Shown: one piece after another, positions 29,415-47,292 of the stretch
Layout: every line of letters starts with the position of its first letter
Numbering within the stretch: position 1 is the stretch's first letter
Assembly (NCBI RefSeq): GCF_009859475.1
Contig: NZ_CP044549.1
Coordinates: forward strand, 5,022,001 to 5,086,000
Direction of reading: 5' to 3'
From: Hydrogenophaga sp. BPS33
GTDB lineage: Bacteria > Pseudomonadota > Gammaproteobacteria > Burkholderiales > Burkholderiaceae_C
DNA: 64,000 nt
Program-made: the position numbers and the translations under genes
The notes under the pieces: model-generated
The model's input: only the letters and a program-made list of their open reading frames with translations
Told to the model about the DNA's origin: nothing
The model's database searches: none

Positions 29415-31882
29415 ACGCGCGCGACAAAAACAACCCCACCGAGGCGCCCATGGTGATTTCATCCCGTGCCGACGCGGTCGCGGAACCAGCCGACGAAGCC
29501 CTGGCGCGATCCCATCCTTCCGTTCGCCCTGAGCCAGTCGAAGGGCTCACCCAGACCTTGGCGAAGGTTTCGACAGGCTCAGCCCGAACGGAGGTGGTCC
29601 GCACGCGTCAAGCGAATCCCGCCGCCGGTGTCTCCCGCTTCCACGAAAGCGCCCGCGCCCAGGTGGCCGGCGCGGCCACCTACATCGACGACATCCCCGA
29701 AGTGCGCGGCACGCTGCACGCCGCACCCGTGTGCTCCCACGTGCCGCACGGCACGCTGCGCGGCTTCGACGCCTCAGCCGCTTTGGCGGTGCCCGGCGTG
29801 CGTGGCGTCTTCGGCGCAAACGACATCCCGGGCGATCCCACGCTGGCCGCGTTCGCGCACGACGAACCGGTGTTCGCCCACGAGACCGTGCAGTTCACCG
29901 GCCAGGTGGTGGCCCTCGTCGTCGCCGACGACGTGATGACCGCGCGCCGCGCGGCACGCCTCGTCAAACTGGACATCGCGCCCCTGCCCGCCGTGCTGTC
30001 GGTGCAGGAAGCGCATGCCCAGGCCAGCTACGTGCTGCCGCCGGTGCACGTGAAACGCGGCGATGCGGCCGCGGCCTTGAAGCGCGCGCCCCACGTGCTC
30101 GAAGGCCGCTTCGACGTGGGCGGCCAGGAACACTTCTACCTCGAAGGCCAGATCGCCTACGTGCTGCCGCTGGAGCAGAACCAATGGTGGGTCTATTCGA
30201 GCACCCAGCACCCGGGCGAGGTGCAGCACTGGGTCTCGCACGCGCTGGGCATCCACAACCACGCCGTCACGGTCGAGTGCCGGCGCATGGGCGGCGGCTT
30301 CGGCGGCAAGGAAACGCAGGCCGGCCACCTCGCGGTGTGGGCCGCCGTCGCCGCGCACCGCCTGCAGCGCCCGGTGAAGCTGCGGCTGGACCGCGACGAC
30401 GACTTCATGATCACCGGCAAGCGCCACCCCTTCGCCTACCACTACCGCGTGGGCTTCGACGACAGCGGCCTGCTCTGCGGCCTCGACCTGGAGATGCTGG
30501 CCAACTGCGGCTTTTCCGCCGACCTCTCCGGCCCGGTGGCCGACCGCGCCATCTTCCACGCCGACAATGCCTACTTCCTGGAAGACGTGTCGATCTCCAG
30601 CTACCGCTGCAAGACCAACACCCAGAGCCACACGGCGTTCCGGGGCTTCGGTGGACCGCAGGGCGTGATCGTGATCGAGCGCATCCTGAGCGACATCGCC
30701 CAGGCGCTCGGCATGGACCCGCTGGACGTGCGGCTGCGCAACCTCTATGGCATCGACAGCCGCAACGTCACCCACTACCAGATGAAGGTCGAGGACAACA
30801 TCCTCGAGCCTCTCATGACCGCGCTGGCCAACACCAGCCGCTACCGCGAACGCCGCGCGCAGATCGCGGCCTGGAACGCGAAGAGCCCGGTGATCAAGAA
30901 AGGCATCGCGCTCACGCCGGTGAAGTTCGGCATCAGCTTCACGGCCACGCTGTTCAACCAGGCCGGTGCGCTGGTGCACGTGTACACCGATGGCAGCGTG
31001 CAGGTGAACCACGGCGGCACGGAAATGGGCCAGGGCCTGAACACCAAGGTGGCCGCCATCGTGGCCGATGAACTGGGCGTGCCCTTCGAGCGCGTGCTCA
31101 GCACGGCTTCAGACACCAGCAAGGTGCCCAACGCGAGCGCCACCGCAGCCAGCAGCGGCACCGACCTGAACGGGCGCGCCGCGCAATTCGCTGCGCGCCA
31201 CGTGCGCGACAACCTCGCGGCCTTCGTCGCCGGGCTCGATGGCTGCGGCGCGGGCGCGGTGCGCTTCGAAGGTGGACAGGTCATCACGCCCACCGCCACG
31301 CGCTCGTTTGAAGAAGTCGTGCACGCCGCCTACGCCAACCGCATCCAGCTCTGGAGCGACGGCTTTTACCGCACACCCAAGATCCACTACGACAAGCACA
31401 CGCTCACCGGCCGGCCGTTCTACTACTTCGCCTACGGCGCGGCGGTCGCCGAGGTCGCGATCGACACGCTCACCGGCGAGAGCCGCGTGCTCAAGGTCGA
31501 CATCCTCCACGACGTGGGCCGCAGCATCAACCCGGCCATCGACGTCGGCCAGATCGAGGGCGGCTTCGTGCAGGGCATGGGCTGGCTCACCACCGAACAA
31601 CTGGTGTGGAACGACAAGGGTTACTTGCAGACCCACGCACCCAGCACCTACAAGATCCCGGCCACCGGAGACGTGCCCGAACACTTCAAGGTCGAGCTCT
31701 GGCCCGAGGCCAACCGCGAAGACAACGTGCACGGCAGCAAGGCCGTGGGCGAGCCGCCATTCATGCTGGCCATCAGCGTGTTCGAGGCATTGCGCGATGC
31801 CGTGGCGCAGGCAGGCGGCAAGCCGTTGGCGATGAACGCGCCGGCCACGGCAGAAGAGGTGCTCAGGGCGATGGACCGTTGA
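29411..31882 (+). CDS. xdhB: Xanthine dehydrogenase large (molybdopterin) subunit
   Basis: An 823-residue catalytic subunit that oxidises hypoxanthine to xanthine and urate. Molybdopterin-binding and active-site segments are visible: GGGFGGKETQ, AFRGFGGPQG, GTEMGQGLNTK, and the catalytic Glu in VGEPPFML near the C-terminus. The mature-like sequence starts near residue 72 (NPAAGVSRFHESARAQVAGA); the first 70 residues are unusual, and residues about 37-60 are encoded by a REP-like inverted repeat. It is translationally coupled to xdhA. The usual maturation gene xdhC, commonly next in line, is absent: a TPR-chaperone array follows instead. Confidence 0.94.
29521..29590. repeat. REP-like inverted repeat inside xdhB
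   Basis: The arm starting cgttcgccctgagccagtcg at 29521 and its partner ending ggctcagcccgaacg at 29590 face each other. This is the widespread proteobacterial element of the CGTTC-GGGCTGAGC-TGTCGAA type. It lies in frame in the N-terminal coding part of xdhB. Confidence 0.8.
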
Positions 31883-31893
31883 AGGGCGCACCA

Positions 31894-31922
31894 CAGGAAC
31901 CGCTCCCCCCCGCCTGTTCCTG
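31894..31922 (+). terminator. Possible hairpin after xdhB
   Basis: CAGGAAC (31894-31900) and GTTCCTG (31916-31922) are perfect arms with a C-rich loop, 12 bp after the xdhB stop. There is no T-run. Confidence 0.35.
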
Positions 31923-31951
31923 AGGGGCTTCTGCTACCACAGGAGCCACCC

Positions 31952-32080
31952 TTGTCTGCCGCTCAATCCCCTTCCCGCGAAACACAGATTCGAGCCGTGA
32001 CGCCAGCCCTCACGGCGGCCATGAACAAGATCGCCCCAGCGCTGCGGGCCGCCCTTGGGGAGGCCCACGATGGACGGTAG
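31952..32080 (+). pseudogene. N-terminal remnant of a SycD/LcrH-like chaperone (cassette 1)
   Basis: A 42-codon frame beginning TTG at 31952 after AGGAG, as in the intact copies at 32825 and 34674. It reads like their first 30 residues (SAAQSPSRETQIRAV..., with an Ala/Leu-rich helix and IAPALRAAL) but stops at the TAG at 32078-32080, so the TPR region is missing, apparently by deletion. The next gene starts inside it (ATG at 32070), preserving the 11-nt chaperone/substrate overlap of cassette 3. Confidence 0.6.
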
Positions 32081-32747
32081 CACGGGCAGCAGTTCCGAAT
32101 CGCCGCGCTCCGTCGATCCGACGCCACGCGTGACCAGGAGCAACCAGGTGAGCGCGCACAATCCCGCGCACAACGGCCAAGGCCCGTGGAACGCCCTCGA
32201 GTCGATCAACGACATGTACCTTGGTCCCGACCCCGAGCCTGAGCCCGAGACCAACGCCATCGCCCAGACCCCATTCGAGACGCGGATCGAGACCACCACC
32301 GACATCGATTCAAGCGTCTCGCCCCCCCGATTCGTCCCCCCGCATTCCAGCAGCGCAGAAGGCCTGGACACGTCCGCACCGGCTCTTCCCCAAGTGACAC
32401 CGCCCCTGGCCAGCACACCGCCACCGGTCGACCTCTTCGCCCAGTTGAAGAGTATCCGGGTGCAAGTTCCACAGCTCCCCGCAAACTCGGCCCTGGCGCC
32501 ACGGGCCTCTGCATTGCAGCAGCACCTCGACCATCTGGCGACCGTGAGGCCGCCGTTCTGCTGTCCGAACCGGTACCTGGCCCTTATCGGCGTGGCATTG
32601 GGGGCCATGTCTGTGGCCGTGTATTTCGGCATCCAACCGGGTAGCAACGAGAGGTATGCGGCAATAGCGCCCCTCCTCCTGGCTCTTGCGTTCATAACCC
32701 AGGCCGCCATGCGGCACTACCTTGCGCGTCTGCTGCCCACGGAATGA
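32070..32747 (+). CDS. Candidate secreted partner of the chaperone array (cassette 1), two C-terminal membrane segments
   Basis: A 225-residue protein of unknown function, started at the ATG at 32070. The first two thirds are Ser/Thr/Pro/Glu-rich and probably disordered (GPDPEPEPETN, SVSPPRFVPPHSSS). The part from about 140 is shared with the protein at 35104: VQVPQ, A-x-ALQQ, RP-x-CC-x-N. It ends in two hydrophobic helices (ALIGVALGAMSVAVYFGI and IAPLLLALAFITQAAM). Class II type III chaperones escort proteins with such membrane segments, so a secreted or translocated role is inferred. Its own chaperone gene is truncated. Confidence 0.5.
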   Translation: MDGSTGSSSESPRSVDPTPRVTRSNQVSAHNPAHNGQGPWNALESINDMYLGPDPEPEPETNAIAQTPFETRIETTTDIDSSVSPPRFVPPHSSSAEGLDTSAPALPQVTPPLASTPPPVDLFAQLKSIRVQVPQLPANSALAPRASALQQHLDHLATVRPPFCCPNRYLALIGVALGAMSVAVYFGIQPGSNERYAAIAPLLLALAFITQAAMRHYLARLLPTE

Positions 32748-32752
32748 CCTGA

Positions 32753-32768
32753 CCCATCTGCGGATGGG
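32753..32768 (+). terminator. Short hairpin after cassette 1
   Basis: CCCATC, TGCG, GATGGG, 6 bp after the stop at 32747. No T-run follows, so it may only weaken read-through. Confidence 0.3.
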
Positions 32769-32824
32769 AACCATGCCCTGGTCCGTCCACTCAGTGGCTT
32801 TCATCGCACCCCAGGAGAAACCCC

Positions 32825-33382
32825 TTGTCCGCCAGTCACACCCCACCCCGTAGCACCGAACTCAGAGCCGTGATGGAAGCCGTCACCGCCGAACTGAACG
32901 AGCTCGCGCCCGCACTCCAGCAACTGGACCCCAACACGGTACCGGCCGGCGTTTCTCTGGGCCAGTTGCGGGGCTTGACGGCGTCGACCTACCTGCCCGT
33001 CTACGACGCCGCCCGTGAGCTGTGCGATCAAGGCCGTTTCCAGGAAGCCTTGCCATTGGCGATCTATCTCGTGGGCCACGAGCCGAGGTACCAGCCCTTC
33101 GTCTTCATCGCCGCCTCGTGCCTGCAACGCACGGGTGAGTTTGCAGCGGCAGCCGAGCTGTACGCAGCGGCCGCCAACGACGGCGCCAACGATGCGCTCG
33201 CCGTGTTCCGCATGGGCGAGTGCCTGGAGGCGTTGAAGCTTCGCAAGGAGGCGGGCGAAGCGTTCGACGAGGCCCTCGATCTGGGCCGGCGCAATCCGGC
33301 CCTGTGGCAACTTCAGGATTGGGCCATGAGCCGCGCCCAAGCCCTGAACGCCCAGCCGGCTTCGGAGGCCGGCCAAGGCTGA
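32825..33382 (+). CDS. SycD/LcrH-like TPR chaperone (cassette 2)
   Basis: A 185-residue protein started at TTG 32825 behind AGGAGA; the same TTG context recurs at 31952 and 34674. After an N-terminal helix comes a TPR fold of about three repeats: LRGLTASTYLPVYDAARELC, GRFQEALPLAIYLVGHEP, FIAASCLQRTGEFAAAAELY, FRMGECLEALKLRKEAGEAF. Order and spacing follow the class II type III chaperones (SycD, LcrH, CesD), where the conserved Gln/Gly-rich turn and the 'xECL' motif occur at the same places. Unlike the other cassettes, no substrate-like gene follows directly. The function is inferred from fold. Confidence 0.7.
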   Translation: MSASHTPPRSTELRAVMEAVTAELNELAPALQQLDPNTVPAGVSLGQLRGLTASTYLPVYDAARELCDQGRFQEALPLAIYLVGHEPRYQPFVFIAASCLQRTGEFAAAAELYAAAANDGANDALAVFRMGECLEALKLRKEAGEAFDEALDLGRRNPALWQLQDWAMSRAQALNAQPASEAGQG

Positions 33383-33522
33383 CAAGCCGCTTTCCCCGGC
33401 CATGTTCGCGCCCATGCCGATGCGCCCAACGAGGCGAGCAGCCCCTCTCTCTCCAAGAGGAACCCTTCCAAAAGAGGCGTCACACAAGCTCTCCAACCTC
33501 TATCCGTGGAGACCTTGCACAC

Positions 33523-34074
33523 ATGCCCACCCACCGCAGCCCACCCGACGAAGCACAGCTCATGGCCGTGCGAGACGCTGTCCGCGCTGAACTCCAAGAC
33601 CTGAGCGCCTTTCTGGAGCGCTCCACCCTTCTGACCTTGCCAAAGGCGTCGCTCGGCAAATTGCGGGGTCTGGACGCGGCCACCTACTTTCCCGTGCACG
33701 AAGCGGCCGAAGCCCTGTGCGACCAGGCCCGGTTCGAAGAAGCGCTCCCGCTGGCGCTCTATCTGATGGTGCACGAGCCAGGACACCAGCCGTTCAACTT
33801 TCTCGCGGCCTCCTGCCTTCATCGTCTGGGCCATCTCCATGAAGCCGCCGAGCTCTATGCCTCGGCGGTCAACGGCGGGCCCGACGATGCCATTGCCCTG
33901 TTCCGCCTGGGCGAATGCCTCGAAACGTCACAACGGCGCAAGCAAGCCCGCGAAGCCTATGAAGCCGCTCTGGACGTGAGCCGGGACAACGCCGATCTTT
34001 GGCAACTTCAAGATTGGGCCATGGCCCGATCGCACGCACTGAACCACACCCAGGAGAGCCAACATGAGCGCTAA
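33523..34074 (+). CDS. SycD/LcrH-like TPR chaperone (cassette 3)
   Basis: A 183-residue paralogue of the protein at 32825, but started by ATG and more diverged (SLGKLRGLDAATYFPVHEAA, FEEALPLALYLMVHEPGHQP, FLAASCLHRLGHLHEAAELY, FRLGECLETSQRRKQAREAY). The TPR core and the C-terminal WQLQDWAMARSHALN helix are complete. Its stop overlaps the start of the next gene by 11 nt (ATGAGCGCTAA), so the two proteins are made together; that supports a chaperone and its own client. Confidence 0.7.
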   Translation: MPTHRSPPDEAQLMAVRDAVRAELQDLSAFLERSTLLTLPKASLGKLRGLDAATYFPVHEAAEALCDQARFEEALPLALYLMVHEPGHQPFNFLAASCLHRLGHLHEAAELYASAVNGGPDDAIALFRLGECLETSQRRKQAREAYEAALDVSRDNADLWQLQDWAMARSHALNHTQESQHER

Positions 34075-34555
34075 ATCCACCCAGCCATACAGTTCACCCA
34101 ACCCCATTCCCCAAACCACCCCGGTTGAAACGAAGGCCGATGACGCGCACGCCAACAACACGGGCTCTGCGCAAGGCCGGTGGAACGACCACACCACGCG
34201 CGCCAAGGAAGTTCGAATCGACTCGGGCGTGCCCACCGACGCAGAGATCCCGCAAGCCCGTTCAGAGCAGAAACCAAAAGGAGCCGTGGAGAACCTCGTG
34301 AGGAGCTCCATCACGGATGGCAATGACGCAGACAACGGCCCCTTCAGAGCAGGCCTGCAGAATGTCGCCAGACGGATCCCTCCCTCAGCCCCAGACTCTG
34401 CAGGGGTCATGAGCATGCAGCAGCGGATCGATGATGCGTCCCCAAACCCGCGGGTGGCCCGTGCGACTCTTTCCCTGGGCATGAGCCTGACCCAGGTCGG
34501 CACAGTACGTTTGATACAGCTCTGCGTGACCCCACCAACAGCACCTTCAACATAG
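34064..34555 (+). CDS. Candidate secreted partner of chaperone 3
   Basis: A 163-residue polar protein of unknown function, rich in Ser, Thr, Pro, Asn and Gln at the N-terminus. A short part near 125-150 (SMQQRIDDASPNPRV) lines up with ALQQRIDAV of the cassette 4 protein. The expected C-terminal membrane segments are missing: after RATLSLGMSL the sequence turns polar and stops, which suggests a frameshift or truncation. It starts inside the end of the chaperone gene. Its product may be non-functional. Confidence 0.45.
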   Translation: MSAKSTQPYSSPNPIPQTTPVETKADDAHANNTGSAQGRWNDHTTRAKEVRIDSGVPTDAEIPQARSEQKPKGAVENLVRSSITDGNDADNGPFRAGLQNVARRIPPSAPDSAGVMSMQQRIDDASPNPRVARATLSLGMSLTQVGTVRLIQLCVTPPTAPST

Positions 34556-34611
34556 GGTGATGGACCGGCGCAGACGGCATGGAGTCCATCGCGCCTTGAG
34601 GCCTCACATCA

Positions 34612-34627
34612 AAGGAATCTATTCCTT
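34612..34627. promoter_or_regulatory. Palindrome upstream of chaperone 4
   Basis: AAGGAAT-CT-ATTCCTT, 46 bp upstream of the TTG start at 34674, in the 118-bp gap after cassette 3. It could be an operator. Confidence 0.35.
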
Positions 34628-34673
34628 CGGGTTGTTACTGAGCGGCGTCTCGTCACAACCCTAGGAGATTTCT

Positions 34674-35189
34674 TTGTCAGACTGTCACACCCCACCCTGT
34701 ACAACGCAACTCAGAACCGTGATGGAGGCGGTCACGGCCGAACTCAACGGGCTTGCTCCCGAACTCGATCGCTTGGATACCAACACCTTGCCGCCCGGCG
34801 TTTCCCTGGGGCAGCTCCGGGGCCTCACGGCGTCGACCTACCTGCCCGTTTACGACGCCGCGCGGGCCCTGTGCGACCAAGGCCAGTTCCAGGAGGCCTT
34901 GCCGCTGGCGATCTATCTCGTCGGCCACGAACCGAGATACCAGCCTTTCGTCTTCATCGCCGCCTCGTGCCTGCAACGCATGGGTGAGTTTGCGGCGGCC
35001 GCCGAGTTGTACGCTGCGGCGGTCAACGACGGTGCCAACGATGCCCTCGCCGTGTTCCGCATGGGCGAATGCCTGGAGACATTGAAGCCTCGCAAGGAGG
35101 CGGGTGAAGCGTTTTTCCGATCGGGACCAAGCCCGCGCCCATCACCGCCGGCGCCACCTCGAAGTCTCAACCAGTCCCCCACCAACTGA
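34674..35189 (+). CDS. SycD/LcrH-like TPR chaperone with altered C-terminus (cassette 4)
   Basis: A 171-residue protein started at TTG 34674 after AGGAG. It is almost identical to the cassette 2 chaperone up to RKEAGEAF (about residue 145), including the full TPR part, which points to a recent duplication. After that it runs into an unrelated Pro/Ser-rich tail (FRSGPSPRPSPPAPP) and stops, so the last helix (WQLQDWAM...) is lost. The tail is the out-of-frame start of the following gene: a deletion has joined the two. Confidence 0.6.
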   Translation: MSDCHTPPCTTQLRTVMEAVTAELNGLAPELDRLDTNTLPPGVSLGQLRGLTASTYLPVYDAARALCDQGQFQEALPLAIYLVGHEPRYQPFVFIAASCLQRMGEFAAAAELYAAAVNDGANDALAVFRMGECLETLKPRKEAGEAFFRSGPSPRPSPPAPPRSLNQSPTN

Positions 35190-35529
35190 GGGTGACTGGA
35201 AAGACCTCGTGTTGGACGAGGTCGTCGATGGGGCGCCCAATACCGGAGCGCGGACCGAAGGAGCCGATCCGTCGACCACCGTCTCCAACGATCTGGGCAA
35301 CCCAGCCGAGGTCAACGACCGCGCCCCGCAGCTGACCGTTGCGGTGCAGGTGCCGCAGGACACGTCGCCGCAAGCCACCGCACTGCAGCAGCGCATCGAC
35401 GCTGTGGTGGCGGAAAACCGTCCCCTCTGTTGCTCGAACAACGCCTTGCTCGCTTTTGGGATGGGGGCGTGGGTGATGGCCATACCTGCGCTGCGGATGC
35501 TTCTCGCGCAATGTCCCGCGCCGGGTTGA
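35104..35529 (+). CDS. Candidate secreted partner fused by deletion to chaperone 4, possibly degenerate
   Basis: A 141-codon frame from a GTG at 35104, overlapping the chaperone 4 frame by 86 bp. Real initiation may be further in, since the original start seems deleted. Residues 75-141 match the cassette 1 protein in pattern: VQVPQDTSPQATALQQRIDA, then NRPLCCSNNALLAFGMGAWV and one hydrophobic helix. The second helix is absent. Likely a shortened version of the same client family; expression is uncertain. Confidence 0.4.
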   Translation: MKRFSDRDQARAHHRRRHLEVSTSPPPTEGDWKDLVLDEVVDGAPNTGARTEGADPSTTVSNDLGNPAEVNDRAPQLTVAVQVPQDTSPQATALQQRIDAVVAENRPLCCSNNALLAFGMGAWVMAIPALRMLLAQCPAPG

Positions 35530-35672
35530 AGGGCGCATTCGCGTAACCCGAGCGCACACGAAAGACAAGCCAAACGCATGCGCTTGGGCTAAGCTGCAAG
35601 CCCATCAGGGTGGCCCGGCGCATTCAGAAATGACCTAGGTACAGACGACATGCGCCCCTCGAAACGGAGGTC

Positions 35673-36626
35673 ATGCCCATGGTGTTTCCCCCCGAGCTTC
35701 TGCCCTACCTGCTGCCCGAAGAAGCACCGCCCGAGCAGTACGCCATCGGCCGCACGCGAGGGCGGGCCGAAGACATCCGCGATCCGTTGCTGCGGCGCTC
35801 GTACCTCTGGGCCAACGCGCTGACGCTTGCGGCGCTCGAAGCCACCACACGCTTCAGCGGCAAGTTCTCCGGTCTCTCGGCGGGCATCGTCTCTCTCAAT
35901 CCAAACCAGCGGCCTGCGTCCATTCAGGCCGTCGAGGGTTTTGCGTTCGGCATCGGCGTGCACTTCGCGGCCGACGAAGCGCGGCCGGGCGAGGTGATCA
36001 CCGTGGAAGTCGGCGGCCGCGCGTTTCCCTTGGCCATCGCGCTCGGCCCCTACGAACCCCATGGCCTGCCACCGCACCCCGCGGGCGGCACTGGCACTTG
36101 CTGGATCACCAGCACGAACCGCTCGAAGTGGCACCACGGCATCCTCACCTGCCGCCATACGCTGGCCGCGCTGTCCCTGGGCGCATCGGTCGGCTTCCAG
36201 ACCAACGGGGTCCATGTGCAACCCACGCGGGGTCATCTGGCCGACATCGACGCCTGCACCATCGACGCGGCCATCGTGGAAATCGCGCCGGGCGACTGGC
36301 CTGCCGGACTTTCTCGCCTGCCCATCTGCCACACGGTGGCACCGGGCCAGTCCGTGTCGTTCCAGGGGCGGTTCGGCTCGGGCAAGGGCACGGTGTTGCG
36401 GGTGTTCCAGGACCCGATCTATCTGGGCAATCTGTTCGGGCAACGTGTGATCACCGATTGTTCGGGCGGCCCGGGCGACAGCGGCAGCCTGCTGGTGGAC
36501 AACACCAGCGGTGCGGGCGTCGGCATCTACATGGGCGAGATTCCCGACGGCCAGGGCGGACACGAGGGCATGTTCCAGCACCTGGCCCAGGCGGCCACGT
36601 ATTTCGGTTTTTCCACCCACCTGTGA
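35673..36626 (+). CDS. Trypsin-like serine protease
   Basis: A 317-residue protein. The S1-type triad is readable: GILTCRHTL (His), the Asp most likely in ADIDACTIDAAIVEI, and DCSGGPGDSGSLLVD (Ser). No signal peptide is seen, so it probably acts in the cytoplasm. An N-terminal part of about 110 residues precedes the protease domain. GGAGG lies 2 nt before the ATG at 35673 and 8 nt before an in-frame ATG at 35679, so the second may be the real start. The next gene encodes a small Pepco/Trypco-like protein 14 bp downstream; such pairs are described from NTP-dependent conflict systems, but no NTPase partner is visible here. Confidence 0.75.
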   Translation: MPMVFPPELLPYLLPEEAPPEQYAIGRTRGRAEDIRDPLLRRSYLWANALTLAALEATTRFSGKFSGLSAGIVSLNPNQRPASIQAVEGFAFGIGVHFAADEARPGEVITVEVGGRAFPLAIALGPYEPHGLPPHPAGGTGTCWITSTNRSKWHHGILTCRHTLAALSLGASVGFQTNGVHVQPTRGHLADIDACTIDAAIVEIAPGDWPAGLSRLPICHTVAPGQSVSFQGRFGSGKGTVLRVFQDPIYLGNLFGQRVITDCSGGPGDSGSLLVDNTSGAGVGIYMGEIPDGQGGHEGMFQHLAQAATYFGFSTHL

Positions 36627-36640
36627 TTGAGGAGAACACC

Positions 36641-36982
36641 ATGGCCAGTCGCGCGACACCGAGCAAAACAAAGATCCCGCTGATCACGCTGGCCCCAACC
36701 AGCGCGGCCCCCGCCGACCGGCTCGGCGGCAAAACACATGGACTGGTGGACCGGCTGGCCAACACCGTCGAGGTGGACGCGGAAAAGCTGCGCAAGAACC
36801 TCGAAGAGGCGATCACGAAACTCGATGGCGCCCTGGCCAAGCTGCCGCAGGCCGTATCGAAGAACTGGAAGATCGAGAACATCTCGGTCGGCCTGAGCGT
36901 GAGCGCCGAAGGCTCGGTGGGCATCGCCACGGCGGGCGTGGAGGCCTCGATCGAGGTGACGTTCTCGCCGAAGACGCCCTAA
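36641..36982 (+). CDS. Pepco/Trypco-like peptidase-associated domain protein
   Basis: A 113-residue protein with GAGGAG 7 nt before the ATG. Residues 45-110 read VEVDAEKLRKNLEEAITKLD, then NWKIENISVGLSVSAEGSVG and IEVTF, the layout of the peptidase co-occurring domains (Pepco, Trypco1) found next to trypsin- or caspase-like proteases in bacterial conflict systems. Which of the two families fits better I cannot say. It probably binds or restrains the protease encoded just upstream, with which it forms an operon. Confidence 0.6.
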   Translation: MASRATPSKTKIPLITLAPTSAAPADRLGGKTHGLVDRLANTVEVDAEKLRKNLEEAITKLDGALAKLPQAVSKNWKIENISVGLSVSAEGSVGIATAGVEASIEVTFSPKTP

Positions 36983-36999
36983 CCGGGATCGCCCAACCC

Positions 37000-38913
37000 C
37001 TACCCCAATCCCAAGGCCCGCATCTTGCGCCACAAGGTGGCGCGGCTGATGCCCAGTGCCTGCGCGGCACGGCCTCGGTGGCCATCCCATTGCGCCAGGA
37101 CCGCGCGCAGCGTGGCTGCGTCGTCCACCGCACGGGCGGCCATGGGCGGCTGCGCGGGCGCGAGTTCCGGGCAGTCGTACAGCAGGTCCTGCAGCGACAC
37201 CGCCTCCACGCTGGGCGCCTGCGCGTGCAACACCGCGATGCGGTCACACACGTTCTCCAGTTCGCGCACGTTGCCCGGCCAGCCGTGGGCCTGCAGCCTG
37301 GGCAACAGGCGCTGCACGATGGCCCGCGGGTCGTGCCCGCATTGCAACTGCGCCAGCCGCCGGTGCAGCGCAGCGATGGCCAGCGTTTCGATGTCGCCCG
37401 TGCGCTCGCGCAAGGGTGGCACCCACAGGCGCAGCAGGTTCAGGCGGTAGTACAGATCCCCGCGAAAGCGCCGCTCAGCCACCATGGCTTCCAACGGCTG
37501 GTGGGTGGCCGCGACGATGCGCACATCCACCGGAATCGGCGCGTGGCCGCCCAGGCGCGTGACCTCACGCTCCTGCAACACGCGCAGCAGCCGCGTTTGC
37601 AGGGGCAGCGGCATGTCGCCGATTTCGTCGAGAAACACCGTGCCCCGGTGCGCGGTCTCGAACAGGCCCGGCTTGCCGCCGCGCCGCGAACCGGTGAAGG
37701 CCCCTTCTTCGTAGCCGAACAACTCGCTCTCGAGCAAGGACTCGGGCAAGGCCGAACAGTTCAGCGCCAGAAACGGCCCGTTGGCGCGCGGGCTGGCGTT
37801 GTGCATGGCCTGGGCCAACAACTCCTTGCCGGTGCCGCTCTCGCCGGTGATCAGCACCCCGAGCTCGGTGACGGCGTAGCGGCGCGCCGCGCGCACAGCC
37901 TGCCGGAAGGACGGGCTCTGGCCCAGCAGGTCGTGGAAGCGGTGTCGCGCTGCCGGCATGCGCCGTCCCTTGCGTCGTGAGCGCAAGCTGGCATCGGCCT
38001 CGGCAATGCGCCGGGCGTCGTAGAGCGCGAGCACCGCGGCGGTGATGCGGTCGGCCTCGCGCAGGGGCGTGCGCACCGCCAGCCAGTCGCGACCGGCGAA
38101 TTGCAGCACCAGGCCGGGTTCGTCGGGAAGGCCCTGCAAGGTCTCGCCCAGGGCGAGCTCGGGCGCAACGTCGCGCAGATCGCGCCCGTGCAGCGCCGCG
38201 GCGGGAGCGCCCAGCACCGCCTGCATGGCCGAGTTCACCGCCACGATGCGGTGTGTGGCGTCCACCGCCAGCACCGCTTCCTGCAGGCTGTGCAGCACCG
38301 CCGACACCTGTTGGCTGCGCGCGCTCTCCAGGCGGGCGACGCGCGCCATCTCGATGCCGTTCTCCAGGCCGGCGCGCACCGAGGCCTGCGAATACGCCAG
38401 CACACCGCGCAGCCCGATCGCACGCGCCGCCTCGACCACGAGACTGGGGCCGACGATCACCTGACAGCCGGCGCCGTTGAGTTCGGCCACCCGGTCGCGC
38501 GCCTGTTCGGGCGTGGCGTAGGCACGCTGCATCACCTCCACGTTCAGCAGCTCCTTCACCCGTTCGAGCGGCTCGATGGTCTCGCCATAGGTGACGACAC
38601 CGACGCCGGCCACGCCATGGGCGCGCGCCTGGCGCAGCGCCAGCAGGATGTCGTAGCCGTTGATGTCGATCGTGGCCACGGGCAAGGCCACGGACTGGCG
38701 CAGCAAGGCCGCGTTGGAGCCGGCGCTCACGAACGCGTCCACCTCGCCGGACTTTTCACGCGCCCGCGCGGCCAGCAGGGCGGGCTGGAAATGCGCGTCG
38801 ACCACCTCGATCTCGACACGATCGGCGTATTCCGCGAACACCGGCGCGGCCAAGGTGCTCAGGTGGCGGTGGCTGAGAAAGCACAGGCGCAGGGGGCGGT
38901 GGATTTGTTTCAT
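37000..38913 (-). CDS. PrpR-family sigma-54-dependent transcriptional activator
   Basis: A 637-residue protein from the ATG at 38913. It has an N-terminal PrpR_N sensor domain (LCFLSHRHLSTLAAPVFAEY ... DAFVSAGSNAALLR, up to about 180), a PAS-like part (about 205-300), an AAA+ sigma-54 interaction domain (GESGTGKELLAQAMH, ELFGYEEGAFTGS (the GAFTGA loop with Ser for Ala), FLDEIGDMP, GWPGNVRELENVC) and a C-terminal Fis-type helix-turn-helix (GRAAQALGISRATLWRKM). It is divergent from the CoA-transferase operon, which it most likely controls in response to a carboxylate or acyl-CoA. Confidence 0.9.
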   Translation of the reverse strand: MKQIHRPLRLCFLSHRHLSTLAAPVFAEYADRVEIEVVDAHFQPALLAARAREKSGEVDAFVSAGSNAALLRQSVALPVATIDINGYDILLALRQARAHGVAGVGVVTYGETIEPLERVKELLNVEVMQRAYATPEQARDRVAELNGAGCQVIVGPSLVVEAARAIGLRGVLAYSQASVRAGLENGIEMARVARLESARSQQVSAVLHSLQEAVLAVDATHRIVAVNSAMQAVLGAPAAALHGRDLRDVAPELALGETLQGLPDEPGLVLQFAGRDWLAVRTPLREADRITAAVLALYDARRIAEADASLRSRRKGRRMPAARHRFHDLLGQSPSFRQAVRAARRYAVTELGVLITGESGTGKELLAQAMHNASPRANGPFLALNCSALPESLLESELFGYEEGAFTGSRRGGKPGLFETAHRGTVFLDEIGDMPLPLQTRLLRVLQEREVTRLGGHAPIPVDVRIVAATHQPLEAMVAERRFRGDLYYRLNLLRLWVPPLRERTGDIETLAIAALHRRLAQLQCGHDPRAIVQRLLPRLQAHGWPGNVRELENVCDRIAVLHAQAPSVEAVSLQDLLYDCPELAPAQPPMAARAVDDAATLRAVLAQWDGHRGRAAQALGISRATLWRKMRALGLG

Positions 38914-38942
38914 GAATGTCTCAAGATCGTTGCACGAAACAA
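38905..38942. promoter_or_regulatory. Inverted repeat at the activator start
   Basis: TTGTTTC (38905-38911) and GAAACAA (38936-38942), 24 bp apart, span the start codon of the PrpR-like gene. It could be an activator or autoregulatory site; spacing is wide, so uncertain. Confidence 0.3.
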
Positions 38943-39016
38943 TTCCAGGTCCTACAGGACAAACCAGAAGAGGAAAAATTCTTTTCAAATCAAGCACTTG
39001 AAAGAGTCCGCAGGAT

Positions 39017-39032
39017 GGGCATGCCGCTTGCA
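39017..39032 (+). promoter_or_regulatory. Sigma-54 (-24/-12) promoter-like sequence
   Basis: GGGCATGCCGCTTGCA matches the TGGCAYR-N4-TTGCW consensus at all but the first base. It points at the CoA-transferase operon, fitting the divergent sigma-54 activator. However, transcription would start at about the start codon (39044), leaving no ribosome site on the message. Confidence 0.4.
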
Positions 39033-39043
39033 GATGAGGAGAC

Positions 39044-40243
39044 ATGGCACCGCTCTCCGGCATCACCGTCCTCGACCTGACCCACATGCTCTCCGGCCCT
39101 TACGGCACCATGCTGCTGGCCGACCTCGGCGCACGCACCATCAAGGTGGAGCCGCCCGGCCGCGGCGAAGGCACCCGCCAACTGCTGCGCGACGATCCGC
39201 AGTACGCCCGCGATGGCGAGGGGGCCTATTTCCTCACGCTCAACCGGAACAAGCACAGCGTGGCGATCGACCTCAAACAGCCCGAGGGTCTGGCGGTGTT
39301 CCACGACCTCGTGCGCCACGCCGACGTGGTGTTCGACAACTTCGCCGCGGGCGTGACCACGCGCCTGGGCATCGACCATGCCGCGCTGTCGGCGGTGAAC
39401 CCGCGCATCGTCACCTGTTCGGTCACCGGCTTCGGTGGCGACGGACCGGATGCGCACCGGCCCGCGTTCGACCAGGTGGTGCAAGGCATGGGCGGCGGCA
39501 TGTCCATCACCGGCCAGCCCGACGGCCCGCCCACGCGCGCGGGCATCCCCATCGGCGACCTGGGTGGCGGCCTGTTCGGCGCCATCGGTGTGCTCGCGGC
39601 GCTGCAGGCGCGCCACAGCACGGGGCGCGGCCAGCATGTGGACATCTCCATGCTCGACGCGCAGATCTCGCTGCTGAACTACATGGCTACCATGCACCTC
39701 ATGTCGGGCGTGGTGCCCGAGCGCATCGGCAACGGCCACTTCGTGCACGTGCCCTACAACACCTACCGCACCGCCGACGGCCACATCATCATCGCCTGCC
39801 TGGGCGATGCCTTCTTCCAGCGCCTGCTCGACGTGCTGCACAGCGAGGTGCTGTGCGAACCGGCCTTCGCCCACCAGCCCGCGCGCCTGGCCGCCAAGGA
39901 CCGCATCGACGCCGCCATCAACGCCGAGCTGGCTGGCGCCGATACCGCCACCTGGCTGGCGCGGCTGAACGCCGCGCGCATTCCCTGCGCGCCGGTGAAC
40001 GACTTTGCACAGGCCTTGAGCGACCCGCAGGTGCTGGCGCGCCAGATGGTGGTGGACGTGCCGCTGCCCAGCGGAGAACGCCTGCGCATGCCGGGCAACC
40101 CGGTGAAGCTGTCGGCGGCGGGCACCCCGGCCTACACCGCACCGCCTGCCCTGGGCGCGCACACCGATGCCGTGCTCGGCGAGCTGCTGGGCTTCGCCCC
40201 CGAGCGGCTGGCCGCGCTGCGCGCGCAAGGCGCGATCGCCTGA
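39044..40243 (+). CDS. CaiB/BaiF family (class III) CoA-transferase
   Basis: A 399-residue protein of normal family length that moves CoA between carboxylic acids. Typical segments are VLDLTHMLSGPYGTMLLADL, IKVEPPGRGEGTR, DLKQPEG, VVFDNFAAGV and SVTGFGGDGP; the catalytic Asp is most likely in AGIPIGDLGGGL. GAGGAG lies just before the ATG. It is first of three genes (with a TAXI-like and a Bug protein) for uptake and CoA activation of an organic acid, probably under the PrpR-like activator. Confidence 0.92.
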   Translation: MAPLSGITVLDLTHMLSGPYGTMLLADLGARTIKVEPPGRGEGTRQLLRDDPQYARDGEGAYFLTLNRNKHSVAIDLKQPEGLAVFHDLVRHADVVFDNFAAGVTTRLGIDHAALSAVNPRIVTCSVTGFGGDGPDAHRPAFDQVVQGMGGGMSITGQPDGPPTRAGIPIGDLGGGLFGAIGVLAALQARHSTGRGQHVDISMLDAQISLLNYMATMHLMSGVVPERIGNGHFVHVPYNTYRTADGHIIIACLGDAFFQRLLDVLHSEVLCEPAFAHQPARLAAKDRIDAAINAELAGADTATWLARLNAARIPCAPVNDFAQALSDPQVLARQMVVDVPLPSGERLRMPGNPVKLSAAGTPAYTAPPALGAHTDAVLGELLGFAPERLAALRAQGAIA

Positions 40244-40282
40244 AGACTTTTCCCCAGCCCCCAGAAAGAAGGAGACCTTTCC

Positions 40283-41251
40283 ATGACAAGACCGAAGGAC
40301 CCCCGCATCGACCTCACCATGGTCGGCGACTGGGGCACCGCCAATTTCCACACCATCTGGGGCTGGGTCTCGGCGCATCTGCGCTGGCGCTCGGCGCCGC
40401 TCTCGCGCTTCACCATCCGCACCGGCAGCGCCTACCGCGACAGCGTGGAGCTGGTGGGCATGGGCGAGGCCGACCTGGCCATCACCACGCCCACGCACAT
40501 CGGCGTGCGCTGGGCGCGCGAAGGCGTGCACTTCTACAAGAACCGGGCCTTTCCCAACCTGCGCACGCTCGGCCACCTGCCGCAGGACGACCGGCTCACG
40601 CTGGCCGTGCGCGCCGACACCGGCATCACCTCGTTCGCCGACATCCGTGAGAAAAAGCCGGTGCTGCACATCGCCATGCCACCGCGCGCGGACGACTGCC
40701 TGTGCAGCTATGTGATCGACCTCATCTTCCGCGCGCACGGCATCGACCCCGAGGACATCGTGCGCTGGGGCGGCTCCTACTACGAACACGAGAACCCGCG
40801 CGCCTGCCTGAAGGCAGCGCAAAACGGTGACTGCAACGCGGTGTTCAACGAGGCCATCATGGTCTCGAACTGGACCGAGCTGGTCACGCAGTACCCGATG
40901 AACTTCATCCCGATCGAACCCGACGCCATGCGCACGCTGGTCGATCAATATGGCCTGCGCCCAGCCGCCATCGAAAAAGGCCGCCTGCTCAACGAGCAAG
41001 ACATTCCCTGCCTGGACTGGTCGAACTGGGGCATTCTGTGTCGCGACGACATGCCCGAGGACGTGGCCTACCGCGTGACCGCCGTCATGGTGGAGGAACG
41101 CGCGGAGTTCGAGGGGCGCTTTCGCCACATGCCGGTGCACCAGAGCCCGCTGACCTACCCCATCGAACCCAAGCGCATGCCCACGCGCGTGGACCTGCCG
41201 CTGCACCCTGGCGCCGAGCGCTACTACCGCGAACACGGTTTGCTCGACTGA
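40283..41251 (+). CDS. TAXI-type (TRAP) solute-binding protein without signal peptide
   Basis: A 322-residue protein of the NMT1/TAXI binding-protein fold: FTIRTGSAYRDSVELVGMGE, DLAITTPTHIGVRWAREGVH, LAVRADTGITSFADIREKKP. The N-terminus (MTRPKDPRIDLTMVGDWGTA) is polar; no export signal is seen, even in the 40 bp upstream. It may therefore act in the cytoplasm, perhaps as an enzyme or sensor, rather than in transport. AAGGAG precedes the ATG. It lies between the CoA-transferase and Bug genes in one operon. Confidence 0.7.
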   Translation: MTRPKDPRIDLTMVGDWGTANFHTIWGWVSAHLRWRSAPLSRFTIRTGSAYRDSVELVGMGEADLAITTPTHIGVRWAREGVHFYKNRAFPNLRTLGHLPQDDRLTLAVRADTGITSFADIREKKPVLHIAMPPRADDCLCSYVIDLIFRAHGIDPEDIVRWGGSYYEHENPRACLKAAQNGDCNAVFNEAIMVSNWTELVTQYPMNFIPIEPDAMRTLVDQYGLRPAAIEKGRLLNEQDIPCLDWSNWGILCRDDMPEDVAYRVTAVMVEERAEFEGRFRHMPVHQSPLTYPIEPKRMPTRVDLPLHPGAERYYREHGLLD

Positions 41252-41283
41252 ACCGGCAGCAACCCCACAACAGGAGACACCCC

Positions 41284-42276
41284 ATGACCGACACCCGTCG
41301 CACCACCACCACGCGCCGCACCGTCCTGCAGACCGCGGCCGCGGCCTGCCTCGCGCCGCTGACCTTCGGCGCGCACGCCGACACCTACCCCTCTCGCGTG
41401 GTCACCATCGTCGTGCCCTTCGGCCCGGGCAACGCCTACGACATGATGGCGCGTTACCTCGCCGATCGATTGCGCGAATCGATGGGCCAGCCCTTCATCG
41501 TCGAAGCGCGGCAAGGCGCACTGGGCGGCGTGGCCGCCTCTTTCGTGGCGCGCGCGCCGGCCGACGGCTACACGCTGCTGTTCGGTGCGAACTCCACCCA
41601 CGCGGCCAACCAGCATCTGTTCAAGACCATCCCTTACGACCCGGTGGCCGACTTCGCGCCTGTGACCACGCTGGCCACCATCCCGCAGGTGCTGGTGGTG
41701 CCGCCTTCGCTGGGCGTGAACAACCTGAAAGAACTGATTGCCCTCGCGAAAAGCCGACCCGGCAAACTCAACTACGGCAGCTCCAGCGCAACAGGCCGCA
41801 TCGCCTCGGAAGCCTTGCGGCAGATGGCCGGCATCGACGCCGTGCATGTGCCGTACAAAACCTCGGGCCAGGCCCTCACGGACCTCGCCGTGGGCCAACT
41901 GCACTTCCTCGTGACCGACGCTGGCCTGGGCATGGCGCAGGCGCAGGGCGGCCGCGTGAAGGTGCTGGGCGTGAGCTCCGCGCAGCGCGTGCCGGCGATC
42001 CCCGACATCCCGACCATCGCCGAAGCCGGTCTGCCCGGCTACGAGTTCACCGCCTGGCTCGCGATCTTCGCGCCCAAGCGCACACCGGCCGATGTGGTGA
42101 ACCGCCTGGCCGACACCATCAACGGCATCGTGCGCAGCCCGGGCATGCAGGAGAGCCTGGCGCGCATGTACGCATTGCCCTATCCGGGCACGCCCGAGTC
42201 GTTGCGCGAGCTGGTGGCGCGCGACGGCAAACGCTGGGGCGAACTGGTGAAGGCAGCCGGTATCGAGCCGGAGTGA
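41284..42276 (+). CDS. Bug-family tripartite tricarboxylate transporter binding protein
   Basis: A 330-residue periplasmic protein. The N-terminus has a twin-arginine-like TTRRTVLQTAAAACLAPLTF and a cleavage site near AHA-DTYP. The Bug fold follows: YPSRVVTIVVPFGPGNAYDM, GALGGVAASFVARAPADGYT, YDPVADFAPVTTLA, HVPYKTSGQALTDLAVGQL and AEAGLPGYEFTAWLAIFAPK. It binds a small carboxylate. No TctA/TctB membrane genes are near, as is usual for Bug proteins. It ends the CoA-transferase operon. Confidence 0.92.
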   Translation: MTDTRRTTTTRRTVLQTAAAACLAPLTFGAHADTYPSRVVTIVVPFGPGNAYDMMARYLADRLRESMGQPFIVEARQGALGGVAASFVARAPADGYTLLFGANSTHAANQHLFKTIPYDPVADFAPVTTLATIPQVLVVPPSLGVNNLKELIALAKSRPGKLNYGSSSATGRIASEALRQMAGIDAVHVPYKTSGQALTDLAVGQLHFLVTDAGLGMAQAQGGRVKVLGVSSAQRVPAIPDIPTIAEAGLPGYEFTAWLAIFAPKRTPADVVNRLADTINGIVRSPGMQESLARMYALPYPGTPESLRELVARDGKRWGELVKAAGIEPE

Positions 42277-42292
42277 CGGCGGCGGAAATCCT

Positions 42293-43453
42293 TCAGCGCA
42301 GCGCAATCCCGCGAGGGGAGGCAATGCCTGCGGTGGCCGTGCAGGCGCCCAGACTGCCATCGCCGTTGACTGGGCAAAACGACACCGCGTTGCTCCCGCC
42401 TTCTGCCACATACGCCTTGGTCCCGGTGGGGCTCAAGGCCATGTCGTAGGGGGCGCTCAAACCCGTCGCGACCGCGGTGCACGGTGCAAGACTGCCATCC
42501 GCCTGCACGCTGCACGAGGACACGGTTCCATTGCCGCCGTTGACCACATAGGCCCGCGTGCCAGCTGGGTTCAGGGACACGCCCGTGGGCAGGGAGAAGC
42601 CCGCGTTGGCGACGCATTCTGTCAAGCCACCAGCCGCTACCTTGCAGTGGGTGACGGTGTGGGTGTTGAAATTGGTGACGTACGCGATCGTCCCGCCCGG
42701 ATGGAGTGCAATGCCCGTGGGACTGCTGAATCCGCTACCGGTCGGCGCACATGGACCCAGGCTGGCGTCGCTGGCGATGGGACAGGCCATCACGCTCCCG
42801 TTGCCATTACCGACATTGGTGACATAGGCCGTCAACCCCGCAGGGTCCATGGCGATGCGGCCGGGAACACTGAACGAGGCAGCGCCTGTCACGCAGGCGT
42901 CGAGTTCGCCGTCACTTTGCAGCGCGCAACGGCTGATGGTGTTCCCGCCCGAATTGACCACGTAGACCCATGTGCCGGCAGGATGTACCGCCACGCCATA
43001 CGGCTGGTCGAACATGGGTGCACTGGTGTTGCAATGGCCCAGTTGGCCGCTCGCCGTGATGGCACATACCGACACGGTGTTGGCGGACATGTTCGCCACA
43101 TACACCTTGCTGCGAACCACCAACGTGGCCGAGTTGCTGTGGACGGCGCCCACCGTTGCCTGGATGTTCGCCGAACCGCTGGCCACTGCGGTGGCCACAC
43201 CCGATGCCGACACAGTGGCCGACGGGTCTGACGAGGTCCAGGTCAGCGCGGGGTCGGCGCTGATGTCGGCCGTCGAGCCGTCCCGATAAGTTGCCGTGGC
43301 GGTGTAGGCCTGCGTGGTCTCGATGCCGATGTGGGCGGCGGTCGGCGCGACGGCAATGGAGACCAGCGCATGGCCCGGCGACGCACCGCCGTTGCCACCG
43401 CCACAAGCCGCCAGCAAAAGGGCAAGAAACAACACGTGCCATGTAGGTTTCAT
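42293..43453 (-). CDS. Big_2/beta-propeller lipoprotein, copy 1
   Basis: A 386-residue lipoprotein (lipobox LLAAC near residue 17) with a Gly/Ser linker. A bacterial Ig-like Big_2 domain (about 30-115; SIAVAPTAAHIGIETTQAYT, DPALTWTSSDPSATVS) precedes six YncE-like propeller blades. Each blade has a cysteine pair spaced C-x(9-10)-C in a turn of the form CxVxxDGSLxxC (for example SVCAITASGQLGHC, SSCSVQADGSLAPC), so up to six disulfides. It is likely surface or periplasmic; ligand unknown. AAGGTG precedes the ATG. It is the last of three tandem paralogues in transcription. Confidence 0.75.
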   Translation of the reverse strand: MKPTWHVLFLALLLAACGGGNGGASPGHALVSIAVAPTAAHIGIETTQAYTATATYRDGSTADISADPALTWTSSDPSATVSASGVATAVASGSANIQATVGAVHSNSATLVVRSKVYVANMSANTVSVCAITASGQLGHCNTSAPMFDQPYGVAVHPAGTWVYVVNSGGNTISRCALQSDGELDACVTGAASFSVPGRIAMDPAGLTAYVTNVGNGNGSVMACPIASDASLGPCAPTGSGFSSPTGIALHPGGTIAYVTNFNTHTVTHCKVAAGGLTECVANAGFSLPTGVSLNPAGTRAYVVNGGNGTVSSCSVQADGSLAPCTAVATGLSAPYDMALSPTGTKAYVAEGGSNAVSFCPVNGDGSLGACTATAGIASPRGIALR

Positions 43454-43514
43454 TCACATCACCTTTTCGTTTGAATACCCGAAAATTCCGGGCCGTTGAA
43501 ATACGCGCCGTTGC

Positions 43515-44702
43515 TCATGGCACCGCGATGCCGTAGGGGAAGCTGAAGCCTGCGGTGGATGTGCAAGCGCCCAAGCTGCCATCGGGGTTGACCGGGCAAA
43601 ACGACACCTCATCGCCGTGGGTCAAGTACAACTTGGTGCCGGTCGGGTTGAAGGCAATGTGAGTCAGAAAACGGATGCCACTGGCAGCCGTGGTGCACGG
43701 CCCGAGACTCCCATTCACTTGCACGCTGCATGAGGATACGGTTTCAACGTTATTGGCCCGATAGGCCAAAGTGCCTGCGGGGTTGATGGCGACACCGATA
43801 GGGATGAGACCGGTTCCCACGGTAACAACGCATGCGGTCAAGCTGCCATCCGACACCGTGCAGTGGGTGAAGGTATCGTTGGCCTGATTGGTGACATAGG
43901 CCATCGTCCCACTCGGGTTCAGCGCAATGCCTTCGGGACGGCTGAACCCGCTCCTGGTAGAAACGCAGTTACCCAGACTGCCGTCGACCTGGATGGGACA
44001 CGCCTGCACGGCATCGCCGACAGCTTCCGTCACGTAGGCGGTGGTTCCCGCCGGGTTGATAACAATGCTGGCGGGACTGCGAAATAGGGCCGCGCCCTCG
44101 ACGCAAGCCTCCAATTCCCCATCGTTCTGCAGCGCGCAATGGATGATGTTTTGTCCCGCCTTGTTGGCGACATAGGCAAACGTCCCGTCGGGGTGGATCG
44201 CCACGCCAGTGGGGGAGTTGAACAATCGGTCACTCGTGTTGCACGTACCGAGGTTCCCGCTGGCCGTGATTGCACACACCGACAGGGTGCCTGAGTTAGC
44301 GTCAGTCACGTAGACGCGACTGCGAACCCGCAGCGTCGCCATGTTGCTGTTGACAGCGCCCAACGTGGCCTGGATGTTCGCCGCGCCGCTGGCCACCGCA
44401 GTGGCCACGCCCGATGCCGCCACGATGGCCGCCGGGTCTGAGGAGCTCCAGGTCAGCATGGGGTCGGCGCTGATGTCGGCCGTCGAACCGTCCCGATAAG
44501 TTGCCGTGGCGGTGTAGGCCTGCGTGGTCTCGATGCCGATGCGCGCGTTGGCCGGTGTGACCACAATGGACACCAGCGGATTCGCTGGCGGCGCCCCGCC
44601 ACCGATGCTTCCACCGGCGCTGCCCACGTTGCTACCGCCACAAGCTGTCAGTGCCATCAAAAGACAAAGCCGCCAGAACAACCCATGCCACGCCTGTTTC
44701 AT
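43515..44702 (-). CDS. Big_2/beta-propeller lipoprotein, copy 2
   Basis: A 395-residue paralogue of copy 1. The start at 44702 is chosen because AAGGAGAT lies 5 nt upstream and it gives a clean signal peptide with lipobox ALTAC. The Big_2 domain is nearly identical to copy 1 (TQAYTATATYRDGSTADISA). The six blades keep the cysteine pairs (SVCAITASGNLGTC, IHCALQNDGELEAC, SFCPVNPDGSLGAC), but one blade is irregular (AYRANNVETVSSCSV). It is 61 bp upstream of copy 1. Confidence 0.75.
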   Translation of the reverse strand: MKQAWHGLFWRLCLLMALTACGGSNVGSAGGSIGGGAPPANPLVSIVVTPANARIGIETTQAYTATATYRDGSTADISADPMLTWSSSDPAAIVAASGVATAVASGAANIQATLGAVNSNMATLRVRSRVYVTDANSGTLSVCAITASGNLGTCNTSDRLFNSPTGVAIHPDGTFAYVANKAGQNIIHCALQNDGELEACVEGAALFRSPASIVINPAGTTAYVTEAVGDAVQACPIQVDGSLGNCVSTRSGFSRPEGIALNPSGTMAYVTNQANDTFTHCTVSDGSLTACVVTVGTGLIPIGVAINPAGTLAYRANNVETVSSCSVQVNGSLGPCTTAASGIRFLTHIAFNPTGTKLYLTHGDEVSFCPVNPDGSLGACTSTAGFSFPYGIAVP

Positions 44703-44754
44703 CACGTATCTCCTTCTCAATGAGCACATCAAAATCTGATCCAGATTCGTCACA

Positions 44755-45948: not shown

Positions 45949-46034
45949 CGCGCACCTCCCCTGTGTTGGAACCACGAAGCCGGCCACGCGCCGCGGCTGC
46001 GCGGGGGGGTGGTCGGGCTCCCTGACGCGCCGTT

Positions 46035-46061
46035 GGGAACCGGTAGCGATGCCCGGTTCCC
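46035..46061 (-). terminator. Hairpin after the ModE-like regulator gene
   Basis: GGGAACCGG / CCGGTTCCC, a 9-bp perfect stem with a 9-nt loop, starting 8 bp beyond the stop of the minus-strand regulator gene at 46070. It has no clear T-run. The rest of the 121-bp gap 45949-46069 shows nothing else. Confidence 0.45.
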
Positions 46062-46069
46062 CGCCGGCC

Positions 46070-47266: not shown

Positions 47267-47292
47267 GGCGCCACCGCTGGCACCGAAAGACC

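Follow-up and report, generated by a model that had tools for sequence, protein, structure and literature searches.

A tandem array of SycD/LcrH-like chaperone genes and small candidate clients in Hydrogenophaga sp. BPS33, probably left by a lost type III secretion system

Why should a genome in which no injectisome was detected carry several genes for type III secretion chaperones side by side? This question is raised by a stretch of 64,000 nucleotides (the window; C1:5,022,001–5,086,000) in the 6.77-Mb, three-contig genome of Hydrogenophaga sp. BPS33 (G000), a genus belonging to Comamonadaceae. Between window positions 31,952 and 35,529, whole and broken genes for tetratricopeptide repeat (TPR) proteins lie among genes for small proteins, termed clients here, all on the plus strand and in the order TPR0 stub, client 1, TPR1, TPR2, client 2, TPR3 and client 3. 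We consider that this array probably consists of duplicated, partly decayed chaperone–client cassettes of a type III secretion system (T3SS) that has been lost.

The array, its chaperones and its clients

The array comprises the following features.

31,952–32,080, plus strand: TPR0, 5' stub of a SycD-like chaperone gene, ca. 32 codons homologous, the remainder gone (alignment to the start of TPR1)
32,070–32,747, plus strand: client 1, 225 aa, with a polar N-terminal part, GPWNA at residues 38–42, a CC core and two C-terminal hydrophobic segments
32,825–33,382, plus strand: TPR1, full-length SycD/LcrH-like chaperone, 185 aa (TIGR02552, AlphaFold2, fold matches)
33,523–34,074, plus strand: TPR2, full-length SycD/LcrH-like chaperone, 183 aa (TIGR02552, tree)
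34,064–34,555, plus strand: client 2 (tentative), 163 aa, with a QGRWND motif and no hydrophobic tail (open reading frame)
34,674–35,189, plus strand: TPR3, SycD-like copy, sister to TPR1, with its C-terminus replaced (DNA identity, tree)
35,104–35,529, plus strand: client 3, apparently N-terminally truncated, with the CC core and one hydrophobic segment, overlapping the end of TPR3

A first-pass annotation made from the sequence alone had listed three long TPR proteins and a fourth cut to 42 codons, and the open reading frames (ORFs) bore this out. Judged from its alignment, the 42-codon ORF at 31,952 is a true fragment of a chaperone gene: 32 residues aligned with the start of TPR1 (score 89, matched by 0 of 2000 shuffles), and an AGGAG–TTG start region is common to both genes, with a DNA score matched by 0 of 500 shuffles. 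The near identity reported between the products at 32,825 and 34,674 was likewise recovered, TPR1 and TPR3 being 78% identical overall, 87% identical across the 147 codons preceding the divergence of TPR3, and 84% identical in DNA over 300 nt. The homology of TPR3 ends at about 35,114, and unrelated sequence from about 35,115 forms its C-terminus. The proposal that the cassettes had multiplied and then degraded was consistent with the tandem copies and truncations, but the decay is only partial: TPR1, TPR2 and client 1 are whole, and two of the four chaperone copies are broken. The chaperone–client gene order, together with the 11-nt overlap of the client 2 start with the TPR2 stop, suggests that four ancestral TPR–client units lie behind the array. 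Of these, unit 1 would retain only a small part of its TPR gene, unit 2 would lack its client, and unit 4 would be missing the end of its TPR gene and the start of its client.

By profile, predicted fold and tree position, the window TPR proteins are assigned to the SycD/LcrH-like (class II) type III chaperones, as the annotation had proposed, and not to an unrelated family. TIGR02552 was the nearest profile, with E-values of 6.5e-17, 1.3e-14 and 1.7e-13 for TPR1, TPR2 and TPR3 (61.5, 54.1 and 50.4 bits); because these scores (50–61 bits) are under the curated cut-off of 104.8 bits, the proteins are called SycD/LcrH-like. The T3SS-locus chaperones of G032 and G065, two genomes of the same genus, likewise scored under this cut-off (104.0 and 98.8 bits). 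Pfam yielded generic TPR families only. The AlphaFold2 model of TPR1 had a predicted local distance difference test (pLDDT) score of 90, and the top structural matches of the TPR fold were SycD, IpgC, PcrH, AcrH and Scc3, so that class II chaperones ranked above other TPR folds. The SscB model NF011886 matched TPR1 (E 0.007) and TPR2 (E 0.005) weakly, and 10 of 10 relatives scored better than these.

The clients are less uniform than first described. A core had been attributed to all three small proteins; the CC core was found in client 1 (the ORF at 32,055) and in the 35,104 product, with client 3 matching client 1 at 37% over 57 aa (tblastn), whereas the 34,064 product (client 2) retains only MQQRIDD and the QGRWND motif and lacks any hydrophobic segment. 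The start of client 1 is most likely ATG 32,070, and its hydrophobic segments begin at residues 170 and 196; the 35,104 product appears to have lost its N-terminus. The hydrophobic helices noted in two of the three proteins were those of clients 1 and 3, and the arrangement of a polar N-terminal part with C-terminal hydrophobic segments beside a TPR gene is found fully in client 1, partly in client 3 and without the segment in client 2. A metagenomic relative of client 1 (P0011) could be aligned end to end, with 69% identity over 95% in BLASTP and 75% in the MAFFT alignment. The codon-usage scores per codon of the three clients were 0.05, −0.11 and 0.01, compared with 0.45 for the neighbouring XDH gene. 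Given this poor codon usage and the metagenomic relative of client 1, clients 2 and 3 seem less certain as expressed genes than client 1. Two protein searches, one of which was limited to scoring the 7997 candidates with the most words in common, each returned a single relative besides the query, and no function was found through this homology.

The translocator type of client suggested at first found no support. No SseC family match was obtained for clients 1–3, for the clients of four unlinked loci in relatives (L103, L049, L045 and L048) or for P0011, unlike the three T3SS-locus clients compared, of which L106 scored 87 bits (cut-off 30.2) and L102 and L058 scored 25 and 28 bits; the reading of the clients as SseC translocators was rejected. 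Because of this difference, they resemble membrane effectors more closely than translocators.

Secretion system traces and dispersed cassettes in relatives

The array is an orphan: unlike in the T3SS-bearing G032 and G065, no protein of BPS33 scored above cut-off for SctV, SctN or SctJ. The single SctV match, an hrcV match considered as an injectisome part, was rejected as flagellar FlhA (850 bits to TIGR01398). The best SctN match (474 bits; cut-off 605), an ATPase gene 20 kb from flhA, was also rejected and is presumably FliI; the best SctJ match reached 68 (cut-off 162). The view that the cassettes lie far from any apparatus therefore stood in this respect, but traces of a T3SS do remain. 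A T3SS ghost was located at C1:2.6309–2.635 Mb (L018 18928–20000 and L019 1–2900), 2.4 Mb from the array. It contains an sctC at C1:2.632 Mb, over the SctC cut-off and with an uninterrupted 745-codon frame, a CesT gene beside it (E 8.9e-10), and the C-terminal piece only of sctU (profile positions 221–340 of 341), which was found in reading the surroundings of sctC. The ghost adjoins a sensor-kinase-like ORF on the opposite strand and an RsbW-like ATPase gene, with an aldo/keto reductase gene on one side of it and rpoD on the other (gene order from ORF starts); in G018, G033 and G065 the aldo/keto reductase–rpoD site holds a TPR gene and a client. Its sctU–CesT–sctC order recurs in the T3SS loci that G032 and G065 carry, and its SctC and SctU piece are 38% and 52% identical to those of G032.

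A second TPR–client pair was found at C1:6.022 Mb (L020 8135–9796), where it matches in place and sequence a pair in Hydrogenophaga sp. 2FB (G025), a member of the same genus. The chaperones of the two pairs are 86% identical and the clients 40%. The BPS33 client here is a 380-aa protein that contains long runs of threonine and has a hydrophobic helix at its C-terminus; its omega (the ratio of non-synonymous to synonymous substitution rates) against G025 was 0.56, from a poor alignment.

A profile of the BPS33 TPR proteins matched 10 of 67 Hydrogenophaga genomes, two of them weakly (G047 and G059, set aside). SctV over cut-off was present in three of the 67 (G032, G065 and, in a lower-scoring type, G066), and SctC at E ≤ 1e-60 likewise in three (BPS33, G032 and G065). 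In G003 and G032, a further FlhA-like protein was rejected as a T3SS component, as it lies within a second flagellar-type gene set (from ORF starts). The family sample consisted of 397 genomes, chosen evenly among those at least 90% complete, and was searched at E ≤ 1e-8 with eight first-look candidates scored per genome, so that copies may be missed. Matches occurred in 27 genomes; 13 of these, with frames of at least 351 aa or scores below 42 bits, were taken to be generic TPR proteins and not considered further, and short frames were present in 14. These 14 include all 12 genomes with a high-scoring SctV type (878–965 bits) and none of the 21 other SctV genomes. For 11 of these 12 genomes, one or more TPR matches lay near SctV, as the chaperone belonging to the T3SS itself. 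Copies distant from the T3SS were found in G410, G418 and G298 (with an internal stop), and copies without SctV in G163 and BPS33; a copy in G444 on a 9-kb contig was not counted as unlinked. In Caenimonas koreensis, the TPR copy lies on a 337-kb contig and an SctU over cut-off on a 335-kb contig. The comparison with related genomes that had been proposed thus placed the cassette clade in both T3SS-bearing and T3SS-less relatives, with unlinked copies in six T3SS-bearing genomes (G410, G418, G298, G032, G065 and C. koreensis).

In a midpoint-rooted tree of 39 TPR rows, all 21 rows of unlinked TPR proteins grouped together in a single clade, which had a support of 98/97 and appeared in 96% of bootstrap trees. 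This tree was built with TPR3 only to 35,114 and without classical SycD/IpgC/PcrH sequences, TPR0, L052 (G065), L105 (G298, internal stop), P0003, P0005 and P0008. Nine T3SS-locus chaperones, forming their own group (79/87), joined the unlinked clade in a 98/96 group, and nine other T3SS-locus TPR proteins fell outside it. The nearest branch to the unlinked clade is thus formed by translocator chaperones of a single T3SS subtype. The neighbours of three among the former nine comprised one SseC-type translocator over cut-off and two weak SseC matches. TPR1 and TPR3 were the closest copies (100/99), and TPR2 grouped with metagenomic proteins. Since the unlinked copies form a single clade, they look like one old lineage and not like repeated local escapes.

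Clients with membrane segments also accompany the unlinked chaperones elsewhere. At 11 of the 14 unlinked loci outside the window (L020, L045, L048, L049, L103, L105, L046, L047, L050, L051 and L052), the neighbouring frame has at least one hydrophobic segment; in G032, for example, a 159-codon frame with two such segments lies directly upstream of the unlinked copy. A P/VxLxxP chaperone anchor was present within the first 120 residues in 6 of 13 clients (without L046, L047, L050 and L052), where shuffled sequences gave 1.3 and 3 of 5000 reached six, and in one of four T3SS-locus clients tested. The clients of G410 and G298, 59% identical, carry it as VSLTLP/VALTLP. An N-terminal WN dipeptide occurred in 5 of 12 clients (without w3, L046, L047, L050 and L052), compared with 0.62 expected (2 of 20,000 shuffles as high). 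Given that it was first spotted by eye and that w1 and w2 are probable paralogues and L020 and L049 probable homologues, the dipeptide is treated as a lead only.

Interpretation and competing explanations

In the reading that we favour, each unit paired a SycD/LcrH-like (class II) TPR chaperone gene with a downstream gene for a small client that has membrane segments. While an ancestor still possessed a T3SS, the chaperone would have bound the N-terminal region and the hydrophobic helices of its client, shielded that client from insertion into the bacterial inner membrane and delivered it to the injectisome, by analogy with SscB and SseF. The apparatus would then have been lost from the BPS33 genome, leaving the ghost at 2.63 Mb and cassettes in the window (four chaperone copies and three clients) and at 6.02 Mb (one pair). 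Binding, past export, the effector nature of the clients and the membership of ghost and cassettes in one system are, in this scheme, what we infer. According to the literature (PMC9993115, PMC6110835), SscB contacts its client at two places, the chaperone-binding domain and a transmembrane segment, and prevents insertion into the inner membrane, and the established partners of class II chaperones are translocon proteins. Like SycD, LcrH, IpgC and PcrH, the proteins studied here have an all-helical TPR fold of 165–185 aa and genes adjoining one for a protein with hydrophobic segments; unlike them, they score below the curated cut-off, form a separate clade, lie away from T3SS loci beside neighbours with no SseC match, and occur in tandem copies. 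Another parallel is Salmonella SscB with SseF/SseG, a chaperone for effectors with hydrophobic segments. SscB and SseF belong to the Salmonella pathogenicity island 2 (SPI-2) T3SS, and similarity of the clients to SseF was sought only through Pfam and NCBIfam.

Several results weigh against this reading, in addition to the sub-cut-off TIGR02552 scores. Unlinked copies were found in seven genomes without a detected injectisome (BPS33, G025, G003, G022, G018, G033 and G163), some of them incomplete assemblies (G033 88%, G163 92% and G018 93%). The window clients had no confident Pfam or NCBIfam match, and the [PV]xLxxP anchor was absent from all three, although SPI-2, E. coli and Chlamydia components also occur without it, as stated in a review (PMC9993115 / PMC6110835). 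Clients from different cassettes are mostly unalignable; the client gene follows the chaperone gene in most loci but precedes it in L046, L048, L050, L051 and L052; and the neighbours at L060, L100 and L101 (67–71 aa, no hydrophobic segment) may not be clients. Finally, the 6.02-Mb chaperone had an omega of 0.13 between BPS33 and G025, both SctV-less, compared with 0.09–0.29 for four neighbours, and such lasting constraint is unexpected for pure relics. Together with the whole TPR1, TPR2 and client 1, this value makes a continuing role possible, e.g., with a flagellar exporter. We regard it as doubtful, though worth keeping in view, that the unlinked clade and its membrane clients are injectisome-independent and kept by selection in T3SS-less Hydrogenophaga, acting at the flagellar export gate or inside the cell.

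The stricter proposal that the cassettes are not relics, their chaperones feeding the membrane clients into flagellar export, or into some other exporter, with no need of an injectisome, would account for this constraint. It also fits BPS33 itself, which has flagellar FlhA and no SctV over cut-off, as well as G025, G003, G018, G022 and G033, which have no SctV or SctU over cut-off and sub-cut-off matches consistent with flagellar FlhA/FlhB, and one pair of the same clade in G003 (L048 8865–10296), which lies inside a flagellar gene cluster, between what we take, from ORF starts, to be fliC-like and fliE/fliF-like ORFs. However, this is the only one of the loci read that sits among flagellar genes, G163 has a copy yet no SctU/FlhB match whatever, and the presence of the clade tracks one T3SS subtype. 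Moreover, the G018/G033 chaperones look relaxed (omega 0.44, compared with 0.08 and 0.19 for two neighbours; for G032/G003 the value was 0.27, compared with 0.15 and 0.50), and two of the four window chaperone copies are broken. We therefore hold it to be unlikely. A variant compatible with the loss of a T3SS places that loss recently, so that the chaperone constraint predates it and everything is now drifting. The still uninterrupted sctC beside a cut sctU and the mixture of broken and whole cassettes agree with it; G025, in which no sctC match at E ≤ 1e-60 was found and yet the orthologue of the 6.02-Mb pair is whole, speaks against it, and we entertain this variant tentatively, at somewhat less than even chances. 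Generic TPR adaptors beside unrelated small membrane proteins, with no T3SS history, would explain the generic Pfam results and the clients' lack of a known family, but the grouping of the clade with T3SS-locus chaperones, the T3SS co-occurrence and the structural ranking already disfavour this explanation, which seems very unlikely. Equally slight or slighter is the chance that the retained chaperones serve as regulators, acting on regulators or enzymes with dispensable clients. TPR1 is intact without its own client, and a T3SS chaperone acting in cyclic di-GMP regulation has been reported (PMC9637222); no regulator partner was seen, and client 1 is kept in a metagenomic relative.

If the cassettes are indeed remnants of a lost T3SS, they would represent a clade tied to one T3SS subtype in Comamonadaceae relatives, able to multiply in tandem and to outlast its machine. 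The annotation knew of no such array, and we found no description of one in the open-licence literature; in our view it probably belongs to a dispersed branch of the class II T3SS chaperones, amplified in tandem and decayed in part, whose clients are probably membrane effectors. Such cassettes could offer a route to hitherto unknown membrane effectors of these bacteria and might help in studying how secretion systems are dismantled, with export genes going first and chaperone–cargo pairs last.

Genomic setting and other genes of the window

The array forms the left end of a larger segment.

31,873–50,752, no strand assigned: ca. 18.9-kb segment not present at the corresponding site of Hydrogenophaga sp. 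2FB (G025) (blastn)

In blastn, window positions 29,620–31,872 and 50,753–57,803 were contiguous in G025 (L142); the segment is either extra in BPS33 or was lost from G025. No TPR match was found within 1.5 kb of XDH in 29 other relatives, whose XDH loci with 1.5-kb flanks were taken from 57 genomes having a match. The GC content of the array is 0.645, compared with 0.666 for the window, and this lower value and the poor client codon usage fit acquired or fast-changing genes.

Beyond the array, the 31,873–50,752 segment contains a trypsin-like gene and many other ORFs. The trypsin-like peptidase gene (a weak match, below cut-off) is followed by a gene for a small Pepco/Trypco1-domain protein (35,673–36,982), a pair that we presume to be of the kind found in peptidase-associated conflict systems. 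At 42,293–44,573, two adjoining ORFs have a common stretch near their starts (AHIGIETTQAYT / ARIGIETTQAYT), and the second matches beta-propeller lactonase and Ig-like families. Elsewhere in the window, two similar-looking ORFs adjoin each other at 12,480–13,040 and 13,293–13,856, the first of which matches the N-acyl amino acid synthase FeeM.

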